Positions 37,881-50,706 of a stretch of 64,000 nt of DNA are shown here, piece by piece. The stretch spans positions 248,001 through 312,000 of the forward strand of contig NZ_CP099582.1 in the NCBI RefSeq assembly GCF_024022995.1, read 5' to 3'. The notes beneath the pieces are model-generated. The model did not search any database. It saw only the letters and a list, made by a program, of their open reading frames with translations, and was not told the DNA's origin. Each line of letters opens with the position of its first letter. The stretch's first letter is position 1. Source of the stretch: Thermococcus aggregans (GTDB taxonomy: Archaea; Methanobacteriota_B; Thermococci; Thermococcales; Thermococcaceae). Both the position numbers and the translations under genes were made by a program.

Positions 37881-39185
37881 ATGCGAGTTTTACTTGTAGG
37901 TGCAGGTGGAAGAGAAAATGCAATTGCTGAGGCCCTGTCAGAGGATGCAGAACTTTACGTTGTTGCAAAACACAAAAACCCAAGCATCAAGAGAATTGCA
38001 GCGGAGTACGGGATTGCTAAAGAGACCGACGTTCAAAAAGTCCTCGATTTTGCTCTGAAGTGGAATGTTGATATGGCTTTTATTGGACCGGAGACTCCGT
38101 TAGAGAAGGGAATCGTGGATGTCCTTGAAGAAAATGGAATCCCAACAGTCGGCCCTTCAAAAGAAGCTGCCATGCTTGAGACAAATAAGGCGTTTGCAAG
38201 ACAAATAATGGAGAAATACAAAATTCCGGGAAGGAAATTGTTCAAAGTTTTCGATGACGTTGCTGAAATGAAAACATGGATAGATGAGTTTGGAAAACCC
38301 GTTGTTGTTAAACCCCTTGGGCTTACCGGAGGCAAAGGAGTTAAAGTCGTCGGATACCAGCTCAAAGACAATGAAGAGGCAAAGGAATATGCAAAGGCCT
38401 TGATAGAGAAGGATGGGAAAGTACTCGTTGAGGAAAGAACTGATGGAGTAGAGTTCACGTTCCAAGTTTTTACCGATGGAAAGAAAGTTATTCCAATGCC
38501 TCTGGCTCAGGATTATCCCCATGCGTATGAAGGCGACATCGGACCAATAACCGGTGGAATGGGCTCTTATTCCTGTGAAAACCACCTACTACCATTTGTC
38601 GAGAAGAAAGACTACGAAAAAGCCTTTGAGACTCTCAAAAAGACCATCGATGCTATGCGTAAAGAAGGGATTCCGTATAAGGGCATTCTCTACGGCCAGT
38701 TCATGCTTGCAAGGGACGAACCTAAGATAATCGAGTACAACGCCCGCTTTGGGGATCCGGAGGCAATGAATGTTCTTCCAATTCTAAAGACTTCCCTTCT
38801 TGAAATTGCAGAGGAAATTGTCGATGGCAACTTAAAGAGAGCTGAATTTGAGCAGAAAGCCACAGTTGTGAAGTATCTGGTGCCAAAAGGGTATCCCACT
38901 AATCCAATCAAGGGAGCCAAAGTTCAAATCAGCGAGGATAAAATCAGAGAAGAGGGAGCTAAGGTCTACTATGCCTCGGTAGATGAAAACCTCACAATGC
39001 TTGGTTCAAGGGCATTGGCCATTGTGGGAATAGCCGATTCTTTAGAAGAGGCTGAAAAAATAGCTTCCGCCGGGATAAAGCACGTCAAGGGTGAGATTTT
39101 CTACCGCAGAGATGTTGGAACCAAAGAAAGCATTGCAAAAAGGATTGAACTCATGAAAACAATTAGAGGTGGGCGAAATGATTGA
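37881..39185 (+). CDS. purD: Phosphoribosylamine-glycine ligase (GAR synthetase)
   Basis: ATP-grasp enzyme of about 434 residues. VLLVGAGGRENAIAEAL is the N-terminal motif; KPLGLTGGKGVKVV is the ATP-grasp loop; YNARFGDPEAMNVLP is the family signature. The ATG at 37881 follows GGTGAAGATC and begins the standard MRVLLVG sequence. Its end overlaps the purP start by eight bases, so purD-purP-purS-purQ-purL form one operon. Confidence 0.97.
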   Translation: MRVLLVGAGGRENAIAEALSEDAELYVVAKHKNPSIKRIAAEYGIAKETDVQKVLDFALKWNVDMAFIGPETPLEKGIVDVLEENGIPTVGPSKEAAMLETNKAFARQIMEKYKIPGRKLFKVFDDVAEMKTWIDEFGKPVVVKPLGLTGGKGVKVVGYQLKDNEEAKEYAKALIEKDGKVLVEERTDGVEFTFQVFTDGKKVIPMPLAQDYPHAYEGDIGPITGGMGSYSCENHLLPFVEKKDYEKAFETLKKTIDAMRKEGIPYKGILYGQFMLARDEPKIIEYNARFGDPEAMNVLPILKTSLLEIAEEIVDGNLKRAEFEQKATVVKYLVPKGYPTNPIKGAKVQISEDKIREEGAKVYYASVDENLTMLGSRALAIVGIADSLEEAEKIASAGIKHVKGEIFYRRDVGTKESIAKRIELMKTIRGGRND

Positions 39186-40320
39186 AAGGGAGCAGATTCT
39201 GGAAGTTTTGGAGAATTACGACAAAGAAAACATAATTATCGGGGCAATCGGGAGCCATTCTGCCCTTGACATAGCGGATGGTGCTAAAGAAGAGGGTTTT
39301 AAGACTCTCATCGTGTCTCAAAAGGGGAGACATAGAACCTATGCGGAGTACTTCAAGGAAAAGAAGACAAAAGACGACCTAACAAAGGGGTTTATTGATG
39401 AAGTAATAGTTTTGGAAAAGTTCGCCCAAATCATTGATATTCAAGAGGAACTGAGGAAAAAGAACGTTATCTTTATACCCAACCGCTCCTTCGTGGTCTA
39501 TACGGGTATTGATAGAGTAGAAAATGAATTTCTGGTGCCTCTCTTTGGGAGCCGCAATTTACTCAGGAGCGAGGAAAGGAGCGAGGAGAAAAGCTACTAC
39601 TGGCTCCTTGAGAAAGCTGGGTTGCCTTATCCCGAGCCCGTAGAACCTGAGGAGATAAACGATGTTGGCCTTGTAATTGTTAAGCTTCCTCACGCAAAGA
39701 AGAGACTCGAAAGAGGATTTTTCACTGCTGCAAGCTATAAGGAGTTTAGAGAAAAAGCTGAGAAGCTTATGAAACTCGGCGTAATCACTGAGGAAGACTT
39801 AGCCAAAGCGAGAATTGAGCGCTACATCATCGGACCGGTATTTAACTTTGACTTCTTCTATTCACCCATTGACGGGGAAATAGAACTCCTCGGCATAGAC
39901 TGGCGTTTTGAGACAAGTTTGGATGGGCATGTTAGATTGCCAGCTTCTCAGCAGCTTACTCTGCCAAAGCGCCAGTTCGAGCCAGAATACACAGTTTGCG
40001 GGCATGCAAGCTCAACGCTCCGTGAGAGCCTCTTGGAGAAAGTCTTCGATATGGCCGAGCGCTACGTTGAAGCCACGAAGAAGTACTACTCACCCGGCAT
40101 AATTGGACCTTTCACACTGCAGACTGCAGTTGACAAAGACCTTAACTTCTACATCTACGACGTCGCTCCGAGGACTGGTGGAGGAACAAACATCCACATG
40201 GCAATGGGGCACCCATATGGAAACGCCCTCTGGAGAAAGCCAATGAGCACCGGAAGGAGGATCGCTCTTGAAATTAAGAGGGCTATTGAGCTGGATGAGC
40301 TTGAGAAGGTTGTTACGTGA
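39178..40320 (+). CDS. purP: FAICAR synthetase (formate-dependent AICAR formyltransferase)
   Basis: ATP-grasp enzyme of about 380 residues. Archaeal PurP makes FAICAR from AICAR, formate and ATP. The N-terminus GAIGSHSALDIADGAKEEGF and the C-terminal DVAPRTGGGTNIHMAMGHPY and [13 protein letters not shown] segments are characteristic. The ATG at 39178 follows AGGTGGGCGA. This is one of three PurP-like genes in the window (also 49777-50706 and 62289-63290) and the longest of them; which one is the main enzyme cannot be told from the sequence. Confidence 0.9.
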   Translation: MIEREQILEVLENYDKENIIIGAIGSHSALDIADGAKEEGFKTLIVSQKGRHRTYAEYFKEKKTKDDLTKGFIDEVIVLEKFAQIIDIQEELRKKNVIFIPNRSFVVYTGIDRVENEFLVPLFGSRNLLRSEERSEEKSYYWLLEKAGLPYPEPVEPEEINDVGLVIVKLPHAKKRLERGFFTAASYKEFREKAEKLMKLGVITEEDLAKARIERYIIGPVFNFDFFYSPIDGEIELLGIDWRFETSLDGHVRLPASQQLTLPKRQFEPEYTVCGHASSTLRESLLEKVFDMAERYVEATKKYYSPGIIGPFTLQTAVDKDLNFYIYDVAPRTGGGTNIHMAMGHPYGNALWRKPMSTGRRIALEIKRAIELDELEKVVT

Positions 40321-40330
40321 GGTGATGCTC

Positions 40331-40576
40331 ATGAAATATAAGGCAAAGATTATTGTACGCCTAAAGGAAGGGCTTAACGACCCAGAAGGAAGAGTAATCG
40401 GGAAGGCGCTCAAAAACTTAGGCTATAAAATTGAAGATCTAAAGGTTCCAAAATACTTTGAGGTTGTTTTTGAGAGCGATAAGCCAGAGAAAGAAGTGGA
40501 AGAGATGTGCAAGCGTTTGTTAGCAAACCCAGTTATCCACACCTACGAGTACCAACTTGAACCCTTGGGTGAGTGA
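40331..40576 (+). CDS. purS: Phosphoribosylformylglycinamidine synthase subunit PurS
   Basis: The protein has 81 residues and the usual PurS sequence [20 protein letters not shown]. PurS links PurQ and PurL in the small-subunit type of FGAM synthase. GAGGTGATGCTC precedes the ATG at 40331; a longer frame extends back into purP and is not used. It is separated by one base from purQ. Confidence 0.96.
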
Positions 40577-40577
40577 G

Positions 40578-41246
40578 ATGCCCAAGTTTGCCGTTATAGT
40601 ATTCCCAGGGACAAACTGCGACTTTGAGACAGTTGAAGCAATCAAAAAAGCCGGTGGAGAAGCAGAGCGAGTGTGGTATAAGTCATCCCTCAAAGACTTT
40701 GACGGCGTGGTTTTGCCAGGAGGCTTTAGCTATGCCGATTATTTGAGGGCCGGAGCAATAAGCGCAAGGGCAGAGATAATGGAGGAAGTTAAAGCTCTCG
40801 TCAGTGAGGGTAAACCTGTGTTAGGAATCTGCAACGGCTTTCAAATCTTAACCGAAAGCGGCCTTTTGCCCGGAGCATTGAGGCCAAACAAGGTTCCAAG
40901 GTTTCTATGCAAGTGGGTTTACCTTAGAGTTAACGATGCCCAAACAGCGTTTACCCAATTTTACAAAGAAGGAGAAGTCATTAGAATGCCAATAGCCCAC
41001 GCTGAAGGGAATTACTATACCGATTCTCCGAAAGTTAGAATCGTCTTCCAGTACAGCAACGAAAAAGGAAATGTAACGGAAGACGCAAATCCAAATGGTT
41101 CTCTCTTGAATATCGCCGGAGTAAGCAATGAAAAGGGAAACGTTCTCGGCATGATGCCCCATCCGGAAAGAGCCAGCGACAAATGGCTCGGGAGCGAGGA
41201 CGGGCTAAAAGTGTTCAAGTCAATGGTGGAGTATGCCAAGAGGTGA
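40578..41246 (+). CDS. purQ: Phosphoribosylformylglycinamidine synthase subunit PurQ (glutaminase)
   Basis: Class I glutamine amidotransferase of 222 residues. The nucleophile cysteine is in [10 protein letters not shown], and the His/Glu pair is near the C-terminus in MMPHPERAS. It releases ammonia for PurL. The ATG at 40578 follows directly on the purS stop (TGAG ATG). Confidence 0.97.
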
Positions 41247-41251
41247 GTCTC

Positions 41252-43393
41252 ATGTTTCCTCACGAGGAAGAGCTAATAAAAGAGAGGCTTGGCAGGGAGC
41301 CGAACGAAGTTGAAAAGGCCATGCTTGAGGTCATGTGGAGTGAGCATGCCTCATACAAGTCGAGCAGAAAATGGCTCAAGCTTTTGCCAACCAAAAATGA
41401 GCACGTGATTTTGGGCCCCGGAGAAGATGCCGGTGTTGTGAAGTTTGATGATAATACCGCAATAGTCGTTGGAATAGAAAGCCACAATCATCCCTCGGCT
41501 GTTGAACCCTACGGCGGAGCTGCCACTGGAGTTGGCGGAATCGTAAGAGATATCCTCTGTATGGGGGCAAGACCAATAGCTTTGCTCGACCCCATACGCT
41601 TTGGTCCTCTTGAAAAGGAGCGCAATAGGTATCTCTTCGAGTACGTCGTTAAGGGAATAGCCGATTACGGCAACAGGATAGGCGTCCCAACAGTTGGAGG
41701 GGAAACGGAGTTCGATGAGAGTTTAGATAACTACACACTTGTAAACGTAGCATGCATTGGTCTGATGAGGCCCGAAGAGCTTGTGCATAGCTATGTTGAG
41801 GAGAGCGGGCTTCTCTTAGTTTTAGTAGGGAACAAAACGGGAAGGGATGGAATTCATGGAGTTACATTTGCGAGTGAAGAGCTAAGCGAAAATGCCGAAG
41901 AGGAAGACCGTTCTGCGGTGCAAATTCCCGACCCCTTCACGGAGAAACTGTTGATTGAGGCAACTCTTGAAGCAGTGCACACAGGTAAGGTAAAAGCTCT
42001 TAAAGACCTCGGCGGTGGCGGTTTAACGTGTGCTTCATCGGAAATGGCTGGAAAGAAGGGCTTTGGTGCAGTGATCTATGCAGACAGAGTGCCGCAAAGG
42101 GAGCCAAACATGAATCCCATGGAAATCATGATTTCAGAAAGCCAAGAGAGAATGCTTTTTGCCGTTAGAAAGGAGGACTTAAATGAAATCACAAAAATCT
42201 TTGAGAAATATGATCTTGAATGGACTGTTGTAGGTGAAATCATAGAAGAGCCCCGATACATCGTTTATTGGAAAGGAAAGAAAGTTGCAGACCTGCCAAT
42301 AGACCTTCTTACTGACGTGCCAACGATAGAATGGAAAGCAAAGCCATACAACATTGAAAAAGACTTCGAGACTCCGAAAATTAGCTCACAAGAAGCCCTA
42401 ATTAAGGTTCTCTCAAGCCCCAATATAATTAGTAAAGCATGGATATGGCAACAGTATGATCATGAAGTCCAAGGGAGGACGGTCTTAAAGCCTGGCCTTG
42501 ATGCAGCAGTTCTCAAGATAAACGACGAATATGGTTTAGCCTTCGTGAGCGATGGAAATCCTTCCCACAGCTATCTGAACCCATACCATGGGGCAGTGGG
42601 TGCTGTTGCTGAGGTTGTGAGGAACCTAGCAAGTGTAGGAGCGAAGCCTTTAGCATTAGTGGACAATCTAAACTTCGCATCACCTGAAAGACCTGAAGTT
42701 TACTGGAGCTTCATAGAGACAATTAAAGGACTGACTGATGGGGCAAAGGCCTTTGGCTTAGCATATGTAAGCGGAAACGTCAGCTTTTACAACGAGGTAG
42801 GCAACAAACCCATAAAACCAACACCCGTGGTTGCTGGTTTGGGGAAAGTAAAGCTTGAAAATCTTATGACAATGGATTTCAAAGACGAAGGAGACCTCAT
42901 AGCCATTGTTGGTGTTACAAAGAAAGAACTTGGAGGAAGCGAGCTCTACAGGGTTTTAAACATCAATGGAGGGATAGCACCGAGAGTTGATCTAGAGAGA
43001 GAAAAGAGGAATGCTGAGGGAATTTTAAAAGCCATAGAACTTAGAGTTGTTAAAGCGGTTCACGATGTCAGCAAGGGTGGAATAGCGGTGGCACTTGCGG
43101 AGATGGCCTTAAGCGGGAACGTTGGATTTGAAGTGGACATAGGTAAAGTTCCAGTGGAAGGAAAGCTCAAACCCCTCGAAACACTGTTTTCGGAAAGCCA
43201 TGGAAGATTCGTGATAAGCTTTGAAGAAGAAAAGCTTGAAAAGGTTGCAGAGCTCTTCGAGGAATTCGCAGTCATTGGAAGGGTTGGAGGAAATGAACTT
43301 GTGTTTAAGAGCGGAGATGGAGAACTTGCTTCCATAAACTTAGAAAAAGCCAAAGAACTGTACAATTCACTTCCTGCACTTTTGGGAGAGTGA
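41252..43393 (+). CDS. purL: Phosphoribosylformylglycinamidine synthase subunit PurL
   Basis: The protein has 713 residues, the small PurL type that needs PurQ and PurS. Early [18 protein letters not shown] and [24 protein letters not shown] are the ATP-binding signatures; the second half is a repeated AIR synthetase-like fold ([15 protein letters not shown]). AGGTGAGTCTC precedes the ATG at 41252. Transcription probably ends in the T-rich tract after the gene. Confidence 0.97.
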
Positions 43394-43453
43394 AACTTCT
43401 TTAATTTTAATTTTGCAATACAATTTTTGTGTTTTTATGATCCCATTAGAAAA

Positions 43454-43486
43454 GCTTTAAAACAAATTCCCGAACATTTGTTCGGG
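43454..43486 (+). promoter_or_regulatory. nadB promoter with an 18-bp perfect palindrome
   Basis: GCTTTAAAAC (about 43454-43463) is the TATA box. CCCGAACA, TT, TGTTCGGG (43469-43486) is a perfect inverted repeat that ends at the expected transcription start, about 9 bases before the nadB ATG. A dimeric repressor bound there would block the start site, so it is a good candidate for an NAD-biosynthesis operator. Confidence 0.65.
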
Positions 43487-43494
43487 GAAAATGT

Positions 43495-44889
43495 ATGAAA
43501 ATAGGAATAATCGGAAATGGGATAGCAGGTTTGACTGCGGCAATAGGGCTAGCTAAAAAGGGCTTTGAAGTTACTATCATCGGAGAGAGAATAGATAAAA
43601 CGAATTCTTACCTAGCCCAGGCAGGTATAGCTCTTCCCCTTCTTGAAGGAGACTCGATAAGGGCACACGTCTTAGACACCATCAAAGCGGGAAGATACCT
43701 AAATGATGAAGAGGTTGTTTGGGCAGTTATCTCAAAATCCAGTGAAGTTTATGATTTTTTACTCTCCTTGGGCTTGAACTTTGAGGAAAATGAAATTGAA
43801 GGGGGACACAGTTTTCCCAGGGTTTTCACAATCAAAAATGAAACTGGAAAGCACGTGATAAGACTCCTCCACATAAGAGCCAAAGAATTGGGCGTTCACT
43901 TCGTAAAAGGCCTTGCGGAATCATTAGCCATCGAAAGTAAAAAGTGCTATGGTGTGTTTCTTGATGGTGAGCTCCTAAAGTTCGACGCCACAATCCTAGC
44001 AACAGGAGGATACACGGCATTGTTTAAATACACCGCCGGCTCTCCCCTTAACCTAGGCATTCTAATTGGAGATGCCATAATGAAAGGGGCTTTAGCAAGT
44101 GACTTAGAATTCGTTCAGTTTCATCCAACGGGTTTTATTGGGAAGGATGGAGTAAAGCTTGTAAGTGAGGCTGTAAGAGGAGCCGGGGCAAAGCTTGTCA
44201 ACGAAGATGGTGAGCGCTTTGTCAACGAACTTGAACCAAGAGACGTGGTTGCAAGAGCAATTTATAGGAAGATGCAAAGTGGCAGTGGAGTTTATTTGGA
44301 CGCCACAGGGATTGAAAACTTTAAAGAAAAGTTCCCCCAGATTTACAGTTTTCTGGTTAAAAAGGGCATAAATCCAGAAAGAGACCTAATCCCGGTAACT
44401 CCAATTGCCCACTATTCCATAGGCGGCTTGAAGGTAGACCTCTATTATAGAACCAATATCAAAAACCTCTACGCAATAGGGGAAGCTGCAAACAACGGCT
44501 TTCATGGGGCGAATAGATTGGCGAGCAACTCTCTCCTGGAGTGCATAGTTAGCGGGCTTGAAGTAGCGAGGACTGTGAGGAGAGACAAACCAAAAGGTGG
44601 AAGTGGAGAAATCAGAGATACAGCCCAAGAGCTAGGAGATATTGAAAGCGTCAAAGAAATTCTATGGAAATATGCTGGAATCGTAAGAAATGAGAACGGC
44701 CTTTTAGAAGGATTGAAAGAACTGGAAAAATTGGAAGTTGATGAGAGGATTAAGCTTTTGGCGAAAGGTATTTTAGAGTGTGCCCTGGCAAGAAAAGAGA
44801 GTCGAGGCGTTCATTACAGAGAGGATTATCCCATTATAAGAAAGGAATTTGAAAGGCACAGCATCTTTAACGGGAGGTGCATTTTATGA
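43495..44889 (+). CDS. nadB: L-aspartate oxidase
   Basis: Flavoprotein of 464 residues. The FAD-binding motif [21 protein letters not shown] is at the N-terminus; FVQFHPTGF and [15 protein letters not shown] are active-site regions; [18 protein letters not shown] is the C-terminal FAD motif. It oxidises aspartate to iminoaspartate for quinolinate synthesis. It is the first gene of a nadB-nadA operon and overlaps nadA by four bases. Confidence 0.96.
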
Positions 44890-45788
44890 ATTTGGTGGAC
44901 GAAATTATCAGGCTCAAAGAAGAGAAGAATGCCATAATTTTGGCTCACAACTATCAACTCCCAGAAATTCAGGACATAGCAGATTTTCTTGGAGACAGCC
45001 TCGAATTAGCAAGGAAGGCTGTAAATGTTGACGCGGACATCATAGTTTTTGCTGGCGTCGATTTTATGGCAGAGACCTCAAAAATCCTAAACCCCGAAAA
45101 GAAAGTTCTCCTTCCAACTAAGAGAGCCACATGTGCAATGGCAAACATGCTTAAAGTTGACCACATCCTTGAAGCCAAAAAGAAGTATCCCGATGCTCCC
45201 GTCGTTCTCTATGTAAACACGACCGCCGAAAGCAAAGCCTACGCTGATGTTACTGTCACATCAGCAAACGCCGATAAAATCGTTGCCAAGCTTGATGCAG
45301 ATACGATAATTTTTGGCCCAGATAACAATCTCGCTTATTATGTTGCAAAGCGCACTGGAAAAAGAATTATACCAATTCCAGAGGGAGGGTACTGCTATGT
45401 CCATAAAAGATTCACGCCTGAAGATGTTGAGAGAACCAAAAAGCTCTATCCAAATGCAAAGTTAATGGTTCACCCCGAGTGCATTCCTGAGGTGCAGGAA
45501 AAAGCGGATCTAATAGTCTCAACAGGCGGAATGGTTAGAAATGCTTGTCAGCACGGCGAGTGGGTTGTCTTTACTGAGAAAGAGATGTGCTACCGCTTGA
45601 AGAAGATCTATCCTGACAAAAAGTTCTATCCTGCAAATGAGGATGCCTTCTGCATTGGAATGAAATCAATTACGCTCAAGCACATCTACGAAGCTCTCAG
45701 AGACGAAAAGTACGAAATTGAAGTGCCCAAAGAAATTGCTGAAAAAGCCAAAAAGGCCATCGAGAGGATGCTGGAGATGAGCAAGTAG
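44886..45788 (+). CDS. nadA: Quinolinate synthase
   Basis: The protein has 300 residues. It condenses iminoaspartate with dihydroxyacetone phosphate using an oxygen-sensitive 4Fe-4S cluster. Conserved cysteines appear in [17 protein letters not shown] and [10 protein letters not shown], and [20 protein letters not shown] is the N-terminal signature. The ATG at 44886 has GGGAGGTGCATTTT upstream. nadC, the next enzyme, is separated from it by an unrelated ATPase gene. Confidence 0.96.
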
Positions 45789-45835
45789 TTAAGTATGGAG
45801 GTAAACTTTTTAAACTTTTTTACCTCTATACTTAA
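45789..45835. promoter_or_regulatory. Promoter of the inserted ATPase, enclosed by a 17-bp inverted repeat
   Basis: TTAAGTATGGAGGTAAA (45789-45805) and TTTACCTCTATACTTAA (45819-45835) are inverted with one mismatch. The 13-base centre, CTTTTTAAACTTT, holds the TATA element. Transcription should start at about 45837, the ATG itself. The symmetric layout suggests an autoregulated promoter or the outer end of a mobile unit. Confidence 0.55.
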
Positions 45836-45836
45836 C

Positions 45837-47129
45837 ATGACACGCGAAGAGATAATAGGTCAGATTGTTAAGGATTTCTTTGATCTCGAAGTTGATGGTG
45901 TTGAGAGAGACTTAGATGTGCCTTTGGATTCGGACCTTAGAAAGGCAATCACAATAATTGGGCCAAGAAGAGCTGGAAAAACATTTTATCTGCTGTCTCA
46001 TTTTGCCCGTCTCAGAAAAGAGGGGAAGGCCGCGTTATTTTTACCGCTTGACGATGACAGGCTTTATCCCCCATCCATAGAGGACTTGTCGGCACTTATA
46101 AAAGTCTTTTATGAGCTTTTTTCTACTGCAGACGAGAAGTACTTATTCCTCGATGAGATTCAAAACGTTCCCAACTGGGAGCTTTTTGTTAAAAGGGCGG
46201 TTGAAAGAGAGGGTTTTAAGGTTTTTCTCACGGGTTCTTCCTCAAAGCTCCTCAGCAAGGAGATAGCCTCCGCTTTAAGGGGCAGAACGCTCACATTTGA
46301 GCTCTTTCCATTCAGCTTCCGGGAGTTTCTGAGAGCTAAGGGCGTAAAACCCAGCAAATATCTGTCCACGAGAGAAGAGGCAATGATTAAGGCTCTCCTA
46401 AAGGAGTACCTTGAGTTTGGAGGCTTTCCGGAGATTGTTATGATAGAGAATGAGTACCTGAAACGTAAGGTGCTGGAGGAGTACATAGATGTCATGCTGT
46501 ACCGTGATGTGGTCGAACGCTATAACCTGAAGAACTTAAAGGCTGTGCGCATGTTTTTAAAACTCCTAGTGACCTCTTTTGCCAAGGAGTTTTCCATAAA
46601 CAGAACTGCAAACTACATGAAGAGCATTGGGATAGAGGTTAGCAAAAACACTCTGTACAACTACCTTGAATACTTTACCGATGCATACATAGTCTTTCCC
46701 CTCAAGAGGTTCTCATACAGCTTGAAGGAGATTGAACGGAGCCTTCCGAAGATATACGTCATAGATAACGGTCTGATAAATGCATACTCTCTCCGCTTCA
46801 CAAGCAATATAGGGCGACTCATGGAGAACACGGTATTTTTGGAGCTCAGACGGAGGAACAAGGAGGTCTTTTACTTTAAAACTCAGGATGGCAGAGAGGT
46901 TGACTTTGTGGTCAGGGAGGACGGTAAAATTGTGGCGCTTATACAGGTGTCGTATTCAGTCGATGATGCCAGCACATGGGAGAGGGAGCTAAAGGGACTT
47001 GTGAAGGCCTCGAAGGAGCTGAGATGTGAGAATTTGATGATTGTAACATGGGATAGAGAAGGGAGGGAAGAGTTTAAAGGCATGAGTGTGGAGCTTATTC
47101 CGCTGTGGAAATTCCTGACCAAAAGGTGA
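45837..47129 (+). CDS. AAA_14/DUF4143 ATPase inserted within the nad operon
   Basis: The protein has about 430 residues. Walker A is GPRRAGKTF, Walker B YLFLDEIQNV, and an arginine-rich sensor region (FLTGSSSKLLSKEIASALRGR) follows. The DUF4143 part has EYLEFGGFPEI and a winged-helix segment; near the C-terminus GREVDFVV...ALIQVSY resembles a nuclease-like core. The ATG at 45837 is preferred, as the TATA element predicts a leaderless message; a longer frame from 45795 lies in the promoter. It is unrelated to NAD synthesis and probably a mobile addition. Confidence 0.85.
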   Translation: MTREEIIGQIVKDFFDLEVDGVERDLDVPLDSDLRKAITIIGPRRAGKTFYLLSHFARLRKEGKAALFLPLDDDRLYPPSIEDLSALIKVFYELFSTADEKYLFLDEIQNVPNWELFVKRAVEREGFKVFLTGSSSKLLSKEIASALRGRTLTFELFPFSFREFLRAKGVKPSKYLSTREEAMIKALLKEYLEFGGFPEIVMIENEYLKRKVLEEYIDVMLYRDVVERYNLKNLKAVRMFLKLLVTSFAKEFSINRTANYMKSIGIEVSKNTLYNYLEYFTDAYIVFPLKRFSYSLKEIERSLPKIYVIDNGLINAYSLRFTSNIGRLMENTVFLELRRRNKEVFYFKTQDGREVDFVVREDGKIVALIQVSYSVDDASTWERELKGLVKASKELRCENLMIVTWDREGREEFKGMSVELIPLWKFLTKR

Positions 47130-47135
47130 TGAAAA

Positions 47136-47963
47136 ATGATTCCCCTTACATACCTTCTCCGCTTTCTGGAGGAAGACGCCCCATTCGGCGATGTCACGAG
47201 CGAAGCTGTTATTCCCGAGGATTTGGAGGCAGAGGCTGTAATTATAGCAAAGCAAGATGGGATTATCGCCGGTTTGGAGGAAGCGAAAGCCCTTTTTGAG
47301 CACTTCGGCGTTAAAGTTGAGCTTAAAGCTAAGGACGGCGATGAAGTGAAGAAGGGAACCGTAGTTATAAAACTCAGGGGCAACGCACGAAAAATTTTGC
47401 TGGTGGAGAGGACAGCTCTCAACATCATAGGGAGGATGAGCGGCATAGCTACTCAAGTGAGAAGGCTTATGAAGAAAGTTAGAGCTGTTAACCCAAATGT
47501 AAGAGTTGCCGGAACGAGGAAGACGCTGTTAAAGCCCCTCGATAAGAGGGCTATACTTCTCGGAGGAGGTGAGTCTCACCGCTTTTCCCTAAGTGATGCT
47601 ATACTCATAAAAGATAACCATTTAGCATTGGTGCCACTTGAAGAGGCAATTAAGCGTGCAAAGGCCTTCAGCGTCTATAAGGTTGTTGAGGTCGAGGTGG
47701 AGAGCCTGGAGGATGCTCTAAAAGCCGCTAAAGCCGGGGCTGATGTAATAATGCTCGATAACATGACGCCAGAGCAAATCGAAGAAGTCCTTGAGGCTTT
47801 AAAGCGCGAAGGGCTTAGGGAGAGAGTTAAAATTGAAGTGAGCGGCGGCATAACTGAGGAGAACATTCAAAGCTACGCGAAGCTCGACATTGATGTCATA
47901 AGCCTCGGAGCTTTAACGCACAGCGTGAAGAACTTCGATGTCAGCTTGGAGATTCTTCATTAG
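47136..47963 (+). CDS. nadC: Nicotinate-nucleotide pyrophosphorylase (quinolinate phosphoribosyltransferase)
   Basis: The protein has 275 residues. LRFLEEDAPFGDVTSEAVIP is the N-terminal signature; RTALNIIGRMSGIAT, GTRKTLLKPLDKRAI and IMLDNMTPEQI are the conserved PRPP and quinolinate-binding regions. It makes nicotinate mononucleotide from quinolinate and PRPP. GGTGATGAAAA precedes the ATG. Its end overlaps the convergent MFS gene by four bases. Confidence 0.97.
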   Translation: MIPLTYLLRFLEEDAPFGDVTSEAVIPEDLEAEAVIIAKQDGIIAGLEEAKALFEHFGVKVELKAKDGDEVKKGTVVIKLRGNARKILLVERTALNIIGRMSGIATQVRRLMKKVRAVNPNVRVAGTRKTLLKPLDKRAILLGGGESHRFSLSDAILIKDNHLALVPLEEAIKRAKAFSVYKVVEVEVESLEDALKAAKAGADVIMLDNMTPEQIEEVLEALKREGLRERVKIEVSGGITEENIQSYAKLDIDVISLGALTHSVKNFDVSLEILH

Positions 47964-49111
47964 TCCTTTTTCTTTTCCAGCAAAATCAAAAGCACCGAAA
48001 ATGGGGCAAAGATTAGGAGGGACAGTCTAACTGAGATTTCTCCAATCTTCACATCTCCAAGGATTCCATAAGCAAAGCCAAAGAGGAGCTGGCCGAGGGT
48101 AGTCCCTAAGTTTGAAACAGCGTTCAGCCCACCAATGGATGCAGAGACTCTTGAGGCCTTTATGGCTAAGAGCTTTCTTACGAGAGGCCTAAACGTGTGT
48201 ATAGCAAATAGGGCCATGACCAGAGCTGGAAACACTGTGTAGGGAGTTTTAATTGCGGCTAAAATTGGGGAAAGCGCTGCCAAAATCACTGCAAATCTAA
48301 GCACTCTCTCCTCTTTTCCAATATCGGCGAGCCATGAAGGAGCATATGCTAAGAGAGCACCAATTAACGAGGATAATCCAATGAGTGTGGCGGCACTTCC
48401 CTTTTCTATGCCCAAAGCCTCAGCAACGTAGACGTATGTTATGTCGCCGGAGGAGAAGGCTATCGTGAAGAAGAAAAGTCCGCTCAAAGCTAAGATTTTC
48501 TTTGCATCAAATGAGCCAGAAGTCTTTTGAGTTCTTTTAGGCACAATCCACTCATAAAGGGCATAATATGCTGTGAGCATCAGCAGGGAGGTTACAACGA
48601 AGGACAGCGATGCAAGAAGCATTTGAGCTTTTATGCCTAAGCCTATGGTGAGGGCGTAGGTGTAGTTTCCGAGGAAAGCGGCAAAGTTCCCAAAGAGGAA
48701 GTATAAAGCGGTTACTCTTCCTTTGAGCTCTTTGGGTGAAGATACGACTATTACAAACTGAGCTATGGGCCAAGAGAGGCCGTTAAAAACACCGTTCAAA
48801 AGCTTAATTCCAACGACCTGCACCCAAGAATTCGTCAGGGCGTAGAGGGGCATTACGAACGCGTTCCCAAACATCGCTAAAGCCCCTAAGAAGACCAACT
48901 CCTTCTTTTTCTCGAGGAGTGAGCCACCAATTACGGAGGAAAAGGCTCGAGAGAGCACAAAAGCTATGGAAATTAATGAGATTGAAATCATTGAAGCGTT
49001 CAATACATCGCGTGTATAAAACGCTACAGCCGGAGTGGCCAGTCTGAAACCGATTGTACCTGTGAATGCCGATGCTATGAGTAGAGCTATGCCTAAAGTT
49101 TGCTTCCTCAT
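47960..49111 (-). CDS. Major facilitator superfamily transporter
   Basis: The protein has 383 residues with about twelve hydrophobic segments and the MFS loop motifs (GGSLLEKKKE between helices 2 and 3, and a repeat of the fold in the second half). The substrate cannot be read from the sequence. A TATA-like ACCTTTTTAACCC lies on the minus strand near 49136-49148. It is followed by convergent nadC. Confidence 0.82.
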   Translation of the reverse strand: MRKQTLGIALLIASAFTGTIGFRLATPAVAFYTRDVLNASMISISLISIAFVLSRAFSSVIGGSLLEKKKELVFLGALAMFGNAFVMPLYALTNSWVQVVGIKLLNGVFNGLSWPIAQFVIVVSSPKELKGRVTALYFLFGNFAAFLGNYTYALTIGLGIKAQMLLASLSFVVTSLLMLTAYYALYEWIVPKRTQKTSGSFDAKKILALSGLFFFTIAFSSGDITYVYVAEALGIEKGSAATLIGLSSLIGALLAYAPSWLADIGKEERVLRFAVILAALSPILAAIKTPYTVFPALVMALFAIHTFRPLVRKLLAIKASRVSASIGGLNAVSNLGTTLGQLLFGFAYGILGDVKIGEISVRLSLLIFAPFSVLLILLEKKKD

Positions 49112-49177
49112 TTTTACCGGACGTGTTTGGGACTGCAGGGTTAAAAAGGTATTTGTCGTGAGTAAGCTTAAAGGGAT

Positions 49178-49780
49178 TTACTTTATGGTTTTCACCCCCA
49201 CCCTAAATTCTTCCCCATAATCGAGTACTCCAATAGCCAGCACTGGATGTGCAAAGCTAAGATTCAAAGCTCTCTCTGCCAGGTCATTTTCGTCTTTAAA
49301 GTCCAAGCTTAGCGTTTCAACACCATCAACGTTGTACGTCGCGGTGAAGAATGCTTTCCCCTCCTCAAGCTTCATCTCTTTTACCCAGAGCTCATTCTTC
49401 CCCACGAAGCCGAGCCAAGCTTTATCGCCTTCCTTTTGAACTACCGCAGCAATTCTTGGCGTGTTATACTCATCGCGCTCGTACCCCATGGCGTCTAAAA
49501 CGTGAATCAGCGCTTTTTTAGGACTCTCCTCCCCGAGGGCTTGGGCTATAAATGGTGTATGAGACCCATTGCTCACAACCGCGTACTCACGGAGGAGCTT
49601 AACCACAGGATAGCTCACGTAGGGGTTGTCCGTTTCAGTTAGGTTGACTATATACACTTCATCTCCCTTTATTAGGGCCTTTCTGTTTGGGAATGAACGA
49701 GAGCTTAAGCGGTAGAAGGCAAAGGGCTTTCCATCGTTCAGGCCTACCCCAACCATTCTCCCGACGTAAACTCCTTTCAT
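49178..49780 (-). CDS. purO: IMP cyclohydrolase, archaeal type
   Basis: The protein has 200 residues and the archaeal PurO sequence: GVYVGRMVGVGLNDGKPFAFYRLSSRSFPNR at the N-terminus and VVSNGSHTPFIAQAL in the middle. It closes FAICAR to IMP, the last step of purine synthesis, right after PurP. It starts within the stop codon of the upstream purP-like gene (ATGA), with GGAGGTGGTAAC as ribosome site. Confidence 0.94.
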   Translation of the reverse strand: MKGVYVGRMVGVGLNDGKPFAFYRLSSRSFPNRKALIKGDEVYIVNLTETDNPYVSYPVVKLLREYAVVSNGSHTPFIAQALGEESPKKALIHVLDAMGYERDEYNTPRIAAVVQKEGDKAWLGFVGKNELWVKEMKLEEGKAFFTATYNVDGVETLSLDFKDENDLAERALNLSFAHPVLAIGVLDYGEEFRVGVKTIK

Positions 49781-50706
49781 GTTACCACCTCCTCTAAGCG
49801 CTCCTCCTGAAGGGCAAGTTTAATCTCACGCGCAATTCTCTCACCCATGAGCATCTCCTCGCCCCAGTATAGGGCGGAATACCAGTGCTTCGCGTTGCTC
49901 CCACCGTCTATGCGCGAAGCAAAGCCTATGCAGTGGAAGTCGCCATCGTAAGCGAAGTGGAGCGCGAAAGGTCCTATGAAAGGCGGCTCGAGCTTTCCCA
50001 TTGCCTCGACAAAGGCCAAACCGTAGTCGTAAAGCCTCGGGAGGAGGGATTCCCTAAGGGCAACGGCCTTGTTTCCAACTATGGTATACGGTAGGGCTTT
50101 GAACGGCCTTCTCTTGTTTGAGTCGGCTATTACTAAGCGCTCATCGACTCCGAAGAGCTCCAAGCGGTTTAAAATTGGTGAGTAGAAGAAGTGGACGTAG
50201 ATGTAGGCGCCATCAATGAAGCGCTCAATTCTGTATTTTTCTTCTATAGGTTTCAGTTTTTCTTCAAGTTCCCCTCCATAGGCAATAAAGTGGCTGCTTC
50301 CCCCTTTTGGACCTTCAATTCTAACGAAGTATAGCTTATCATCCCTAACCTCGCTCAAATCAACGCTCTCCACCTGCGGAATTCCCGCCTTTTCGAGTGC
50401 TTTATCCACAAGCTCGAACTTTGTTTCCCACTTAAGAAAGCGCTTATTGCCAAAGAACCTTGCTTCGCTTTTCTCTATTGCATCAAGGCCTAAGTATGCG
50501 ACGAAGGAGCCGTGCGGGATGATGATTCCCTCGTCGCTTAGGATCTTCTTCATGTCATCCACTACTATGAGCTCATCGACAGCTGGAAGCGAAGCGTAGA
50601 ATTTTCCCCGCTTTGGAGAGGCATAAAGGCGAGTTTTGAATCCTTCTCTCTTAGCCCCTAAAATGATTTGAAGTGAAGAATGAGATGCTATGGTTGAGAT
50701 TATCAT
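49777..50706 (-). CDS. PurP-like ATP-grasp protein, shorter paralogue
   Basis: The protein has 309 residues. The N-terminal ASHSSLQIILGAKREGFKT and the C-terminal GFASRIDGGSNAKHWY match the PurP family. The region around the ATP-grasp loop (RIEGPKGGSSHFIA) is more divergent than in the other two copies. It lies between purC and purO with ATGA overlaps on both sides, so it is surely translated with them and probably acts in the same pathway, perhaps as a regulatory or partner subunit. Confidence 0.82.
   Translation of the reverse strand: MIISTIASHSSLQIILGAKREGFKTRLYASPKRGKFYASLPAVDELIVVDDMKKILSDEGIIIPHGSFVAYLGLDAIEKSEARFFGNKRFLKWETKFELVDKALEKAGIPQVESVDLSEVRDDKLYFVRIEGPKGGSSHFIAYGGELEEKLKPIEEKYRIERFIDGAYIYVHFFYSPILNRLELFGVDERLVIADSNKRRPFKALPYTIVGNKAVALRESLLPRLYDYGLAFVEAMGKLEPPFIGPFALHFAYDGDFHCIGFASRIDGGSNAKHWYSALYWGEEMLMGERIAREIKLALQEERLEEVVT

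Follow-up and report, generated by a model that had tools for sequence, protein, structure and literature searches.

The inverted repeat CCCGAACA-TT-TGTTCGGG in front of nadB is likely to be the operator of a homodimeric repressor. This repressor would respond to niacin or NAD, would be encoded elsewhere in the genome, and would control the supply of NAD in one branch of the Thermococcales. The analysis largely supports the interpretation given in the first-pass annotation, which read the repeat as the target site of a repressor encoded elsewhere. We refer below to the whole stretch of DNA analysed, 64,000 nucleotides long, as the window. The features of the locus are the following, in window coordinates.

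43454..43463, plus strand: TATA-like box GCTTTAAAAC, from the sequence; an A/T-rich box is equivalently spaced at the other sites.
43469..43486, no strand assigned: operator inverted repeat, in full CCCGAACATTTGTTCGGG, from sequence and conservation.
43470-43485: conserved 16-bp core CCGAACANNTGTTCGG, part of the nadB operator.
43481..43487, plus strand: expected transcription start in the right arm, inferred at about 25 bp from the centre of the TATA box.
43495..44889, plus strand: nadB, L-aspartate oxidase (NCBIfam NF006254, 858 bits, cut-off 726; TIGR00551, 508 bits, cut-off 452.75).
44877..45788, plus strand: nadA, quinolinate synthase (NCBIfam NF006878, 422 bits, cut-off 294).
45795..47129, plus strand: gene for an AAA_14 and DUF4143 ATPase between nadA and nadC (Pfam PF13173 and PF13635, over cut-off).
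47136..47963, plus strand: nadC, nicotinate-nucleotide (quinolinate) phosphoribosyltransferase (TIGR00078, 325 bits, cut-off 198).

The two arms of the repeat are complementary at 8 of 8 positions. The central TT does not pair with itself, and the reverse strand is a match with 2 mismatches. The site had been described as a perfect 18-bp palindrome. Its extent and its arms agree with this description, but the unpaired centre makes the word "perfect" an overstatement. As the same description held, the repeat lies between the TATA box and the nadB start codon (ATG at 43495), and 8 bp separate it from the ATG. The box contains TTTAAA at 43456-43461, which starts 14 bp before the 16-bp core. Archaeal promoters have a spacing of about 25 bp from the TATA box to the transcription start. 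Applied to the position of this box, the spacing places the expected start in the right arm. The operator should then cover the transcription start.

The genes downstream are well assigned. nadB, nadA, and nadC each exceed their NCBIfam equivalog cut-offs, and the locus thus holds the full quinolinate route that had been attributed to it. No evident regulator was seen by eye among the open reading frames (ORFs) of 38000-50000, where purine genes and transporters are found. The absence of a regulator from the neighbourhood was likewise part of the earlier reading. Two proteins encoded on opposite strands (39169-40320 and 49777-50706) stand on either side of the nad cluster. By eye, they look like paralogues of a single ATP-grasp purine enzyme, PurP-like.

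We compared the repeat and its core with chance expectation. The window contains 4 inverted repeats of the 8+2+8 form, where a Markov model gives a mean of 1.5, and 6 of 60 simulations gave 4 or more. About 34 are expected per genome. The repeat as such is ordinary and not beyond chance, so common that we rejected any significance drawn from its bare presence. The specific core is beyond chance. The genome that contains the window (G000, 1.889 Mb) has 2 exact copies of CCGAACANNTGTTCGG, against about 0.005 expected with the base composition taken from the window. In both cases the copy follows a TATA-like box directly, and a start codon comes shortly after it.

Allowing mismatches removes this signal. 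The window's genome then gives 7 forward matches and 9 matches of a reversed control pattern, and the 94 genomes of the family give 44 and 40, respectively. For mismatched matches of the 12-base core, the reversed control was higher in 14 of 16 genomes. We therefore did not count mismatched sites as evidence, since the control scores alike, and the case rests on the exact copies and their places. The reversed pattern, which is also a palindrome, showed 16 one-mismatch matches in 13 g1 genomes and none in g5 and g6. Its maximum was 5 one-mismatch matches in a single g1 genome (G076).

The 94 genomes represent six genera (g1 to g6), and genomes within one genus are not independent samples. We found 27 exact copies of the 14-base core in them, 12 at nadB and 15 at a gene for a transporter of the major facilitator superfamily (MFS), with none elsewhere. 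Of the 21 genomes of g1, g5, and g6, the motif genera, 17 have exact cores; none of the 73 genomes of g2, g3, and g4 does. Conservation before nadB in close relatives, on which the earlier reading depended, was found throughout the motif genera. With at most one mismatch, the site is present at 13/13 nadB promoters and 16/16 transporter promoters. The one-mismatch sites are those at nadB of G080 and at the transporter of G088. Four motif-genus genomes have no exact site: G088, and the incomplete assemblies G083, G085, and G091 (61-80% complete), in which neither nadB nor the transporter was found. With the 12-base core, all 25 exact sites of 15 motif genomes lie at nadB, at the transporter, or, in one case, at pncA.

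The site is confined to three of the six genera, and the regulon to one branch of the Thermococcales. Matches to nadB were obtained in 82 of the 94 genomes (E up to 1e-3), one of them spurious (G074, 35% over 79 aa). The genera g2-g4 have 68 genuine nadB matches, and two partial genes were left out of the promoter reading. None of the 66 upstream regions read (3 from g2, 9 from g3, and 54 from g4) carries the site. Likewise, it is absent from the 20 transporter upstream regions read in g2-g4, where 30 genomes have the transporter. The nadB promoter of G019 has a degenerate version, ACCGAGCATCGTTCGGT, one base shorter, which may be a relic or chance. The 14-base core gave 13 one-mismatch matches in g2-g4, none at nadB or the transporter by coordinates (G002 was read in context).

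For the 12-base core, 22 one-mismatch matches were obtained in 16 genomes, and 17 were read in context; the five left out are two in G076, two in G077, and one in G019. Twelve of the 17 are inside ORFs, one is the G080 nadB site, one is a relic in G078, and three lie between ORFs. These three (before a membrane-protein ORF in G074 and beside ORF starts in G092 and G075) are taken as chance. In a wider contig collection, ACCGAACANNTGTTCGGT occurs in at least 119 stretches. Among the 80 listed, two Thermococcus records and one from a methanogen stand among bacterial ones.

Other genera show different repeats at these promoters. In G002 (g2), the nadB promoter (L016) has the inverted repeat CTCACCAAA-C-TTTGGTGAG at the equivalent position, between a TATA-like box and nadB. 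Three transporter promoters of g4 (L114, L115, and L118) have inverted repeats near TTCAT-N4-ATGAA after the TATA box, for example CTTCATGCAAATGAAG. No counterpart of this last repeat was seen at nadB, and it possibly belongs to another control system. Two genes in the sample consist of two overlapping matches each: nadB of G025 (G025:C1:1141573-1142965) and the transporter of G029 (G029:C1:1860286-1861562). Both are probably frameshifted.

The second exact copy in the window's genome, ACCGAACATTTGTTCGGT at G000:C1:784200-784217, occupies the same position before the gene of the MFS transporter, a protein of about 430 aa. This gene is not linked to nadB, and the same site precedes it in 16/16 genomes of the motif genera where the gene was found (G088 with one mismatch). 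The claim that the nadB site serves a regulator encoded elsewhere gains its support here. The transporter matches two NCBIfam models below their cut-offs, aromatic acid/H+ symport (230 bits, cut-off 418.55) and SV2 (131 bits, cut-off 637). By sequence, the solved structures closest to it are those of SV2B and SV2A. The NiaP niacin transporters belong to the same part of the MFS. A pyridine, niacin or a related compound, is thus a plausible substrate. In the g1 relatives read, the gene divergent from the transporter encodes 281-316 aa; in G000 (L068, 7623-8264) it is fragmented into short frames.

The distribution of the transporter fits a carrier of an NAD precursor, being present in all good genomes that lack nadB. 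More precisely, among 74 good genomes it occurs in 6/6 without nadB and in 36/68 with nadB (Fisher p = 0.028, a test that ignores relatedness, which weakens it, and that counts split or fragmentary transporter genes as present). Three near-complete g5 genomes (G086, G087, and G092) are without nadB and have kept both the transporter and the site. In G078 the transporter was not found, and a decayed site, CAAACATTTGTTCG, lies between the neighbouring genes at the syntenic place (L332:3024). These genomes and this relic fit a site that serves the supply of NAD precursor.

A third site, CCGAACATATGTTCGA, with one mismatch, precedes the gene of a nicotinamidase PncA-like protein in G093 (NF008623, 157 bits, cut-off 174). 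In the 16 g1 and g5 genomes read, a gene that by eye appears to be pncB immediately precedes pncA. We scanned the pncB-pncA loci of G000, G077, and G075 (g1) and of G086 (g5), and no good site was found, the best having 10-11 of 16 letters. Most salvage genes therefore seem to be outside the regulon. A search for the motif before genes of NAD synthesis and salvage had been suggested. It stands before nadB in g1, g5, and g6 and before pncA in G093, but not at the nadB promoters read in g2-g4 or at the pncB-pncA loci scanned.

We aligned 31 rows, one of which is a non-target (a match before a membrane-protein ORF, L069) and is set aside here, although the column counts of the alignment include it; 30 sites remain. 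The aligned rows were picked by a pattern, and the constancy of the arms is partly a product of this choice. Independently of it, each nadB and transporter promoter of g1, g5, and g6 fits with at most one change. The consensus is CCGAACA-N2-TGTTCGG. Across the nadB and transporter promoters of these genera, 29 in all, the arms are constant except in two promoters, each with a single changed base. The centre is variable (TT, AA, AT, GA, and TA) and, like the flanks, differs between genera. Held arms and a variable centre are as expected for the site of a dimer. From the start of the TATA-like box to the core, the distance is 14-17 bp. In rows L014, L015, and L079 the box was missed by the word list, and CTTTAAG or CTTTTAAG stands at the same distance.

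The place of the site after the TATA-like box, with the expected start in the right arm, favours a repressor that would block recruitment or initiation. A putative repressor dimer would bind immediately behind the TATA box and across the expected start, so that RNA polymerase would be either not recruited or unable to start. With NAD or a pyridine precursor in ample supply, the repressor would shut off synthesis through nadBA..C and uptake through the MFS transporter. In one species, it would also shut off the nicotinamidase. The site, its conservation, the restriction of exact copies to these promoters, and the position behind the TATA-like box are observations; we infer the protein binding, the repression, niacin or a related pyridine as the cargo of the transporter, and NAD or a precursor of it as the effector.

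Other explanations of the site were weighed against this repressor. It could be the site of an activator, or of a regulator that answers another signal (redox state, aspartate, or sulfur) which the NAD genes serve. The identities of effector and regulator leave room for another signal, and NadB consumes aspartate. A position like this one, behind the TATA-like box and on top of the expected start, is unusual for an archaeal activator. Against another signal, the exact 12-base-core sites of the 15 motif genomes are found only at nadB, the transporter, and pncA, a confinement to be expected from a signal of NAD or niacin, provided that the transporter carries a pyridine. We consider the activator or another signal unlikely. 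The repeat might also act as RNA, by folding into a hairpin at the mRNA's 5' end and so affecting how the message is translated or how stable it is. Its arms could pair as a short stem, and the start codon adjoins the site. In all three sites that depart by one base (nadB of G080, transporter of G088, and pncA of G093), the change replaces C with T in the left arm, so that RNA could still form a G-U pair there. However, three such changes are few, no pair is changed on both sides within the core, and the left arm would be untranscribed if the start lies inside the right arm. We give a role as RNA a distinctly small probability.

The least credible explanation is that of a chance repeat without function, kept by recent common descent. 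Repeats of this form are indeed common (4 in the window, with an expectation of about 34 for a genome), and only related genera carry the site. However, the same core precedes an unlinked gene in 16/16 cases, and this second conserved locus is strongly contrary to chance. Moreover, the exact copies are exclusive to these promoters, and the flanks and the two central bases have diverged between genera around them. The operator of a repressor remains the reading that we prefer.

We searched the 94 genomes for the protein that would bind this operator. The 3H domain of NiaR (PF02829) was detected in 0/94 genomes (E up to 0.001); the same search was positive in 2 of 14 control genomes, Bacillus subtilis and Thermotoga maritima. 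The winged-helix DNA-binding domain of NrtR (PF21906) was detected in 0/94 genomes, and its control was positive in 4 of 14. TetR_N (PF00440) was not found in 11 of 13 g1 genomes, that of the window included. By these absences, in 94 genomes for NiaR and NrtR and in 11 of 13 g1 genomes for TetR, all three were rejected as the regulator. XRE-type HTH_3 domains gave at least 8-12 hits per genome in the 20 genomes, of 94, that this search covered. By length and score, the groups among the matches listed seem present with and without the motif, and no motif-specific XRE group is visible among these matches in the 20 genomes. HTH_11-like domains (winged helices of the Lrp/AsnC, MarR, and ArsR kinds) gave at least 15-28 hits per genome in 25 of the 94 genomes, a number too large to be sorted into groups.

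Individual candidates were rejected as well. An Lrp/TRASH protein, which we take to be CopR-like, is present in 15 of the genomes compared, both motif-bearing and motif-free. The Lrp/TRASH proteins of G086 (g5, L312 3890-4510) and G012 (g3, L314 2839-3459) are identical over 206 residues, by recent transfer or as an assembly artefact. The Lrp-like protein L311, which has a LexA-type HTH hit just over the cut-off, was considered in view of the likeness between the core and an SOS box; it occurs in 92/94 genomes and is thus uninformative. The transporter gene of G000 is followed, after about 2.5 kb, by the gene of a protein that joins an HTH to a phosphoribosyltransferase (NCBIfam PRK08558). Its adjacency was not counted as evidence, since the listed matches of about this length include some from motif-free genomes. 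A DNA-binding protein that co-occurs with the motif, which the first-pass annotation had suggested finding, was not identified among the matches listed (3H and PF21906 in 94 genomes, TetR_N in g1, HTH_3 in 20 genomes, and HTH_11-like in 25). The regulator may be a widespread protein, its operator having been lost or changed in the other genera.

The exact operator, two unlinked target promoters, and an expected class of ligand would allow the regulator to be fished directly. Likewise, the transporter offers a candidate archaeal niacin carrier that can be tested. The site points to an on/off switch for the NAD supply of archaea. To our knowledge, the known regulators of NAD genes (NadR, NiaR, and NrtR) are all bacterial. 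The SOS box of LexA, in its Gram-positive or mycobacterial type, is CGAAC-N4-GTTCG, nearly the same core letters as here. Unlike that box, the exact sites found here are at nadB, the transporter, and pncA, not at genes of DNA repair, and the likeness is taken as convergent.

Among the open-access papers listed, neither titles nor the beginnings of abstracts pointed to an operator or repressor of NAD genes in archaea. The main text of a survey of transcription factors in Pyrococcus furiosus has no words beginning with "NAD" or "nicotin" (PMC6316755). Certain Nudix deletion strains of Sulfolobus acidocaldarius show raised nadA and nadB, and no archaeal NAD regulator is named in the parts of that report consulted (PMC10311068). 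NrtR, a Nudix-related bacterial regulator, resembles the present case in that it controls genes of NAD metabolism (PMC10311068). In contrast, its domain PF21906 is in none of the 94 genomes.

The closest parallel is NiaR (YrxA), the niacin-responsive repressor of Firmicutes, Fusobacteria, and Thermotogales. Its regulon covers nad synthesis genes, the NiaP transporter, and pnc salvage genes (PMC5343564, PMC7713382). The targets here resemble these: the nadB operon, an MFS transporter with a putative pyridine substrate, and pncA in G093 only. Both systems have a palindrome-like operator in the promoter. NiaR operators are TGT-N4-ACA (type I) or ACA-N5-TGT (type II), the latter being the Thermotogales motif (PMC7713382). 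The present site contains ACA-N2-TGT instead, and its arms and spacing correspond to neither type. It also differs in its archaeal TATA-type promoter and in the lack of the 3H domain in all 94 genomes. The system probably works like the NiaR regulon without being a member of it. We find it reasonably likely that an archaeal regulon dedicated to NAD and niacin exists in these three genera, with an operator of 16-18 bp at nadB, at a NiaP-like transporter, and once at pncA. Its repressor would come from a family new to NAD control, and it would have reached the gene set of NiaR independently, with as few as two sites per genome.
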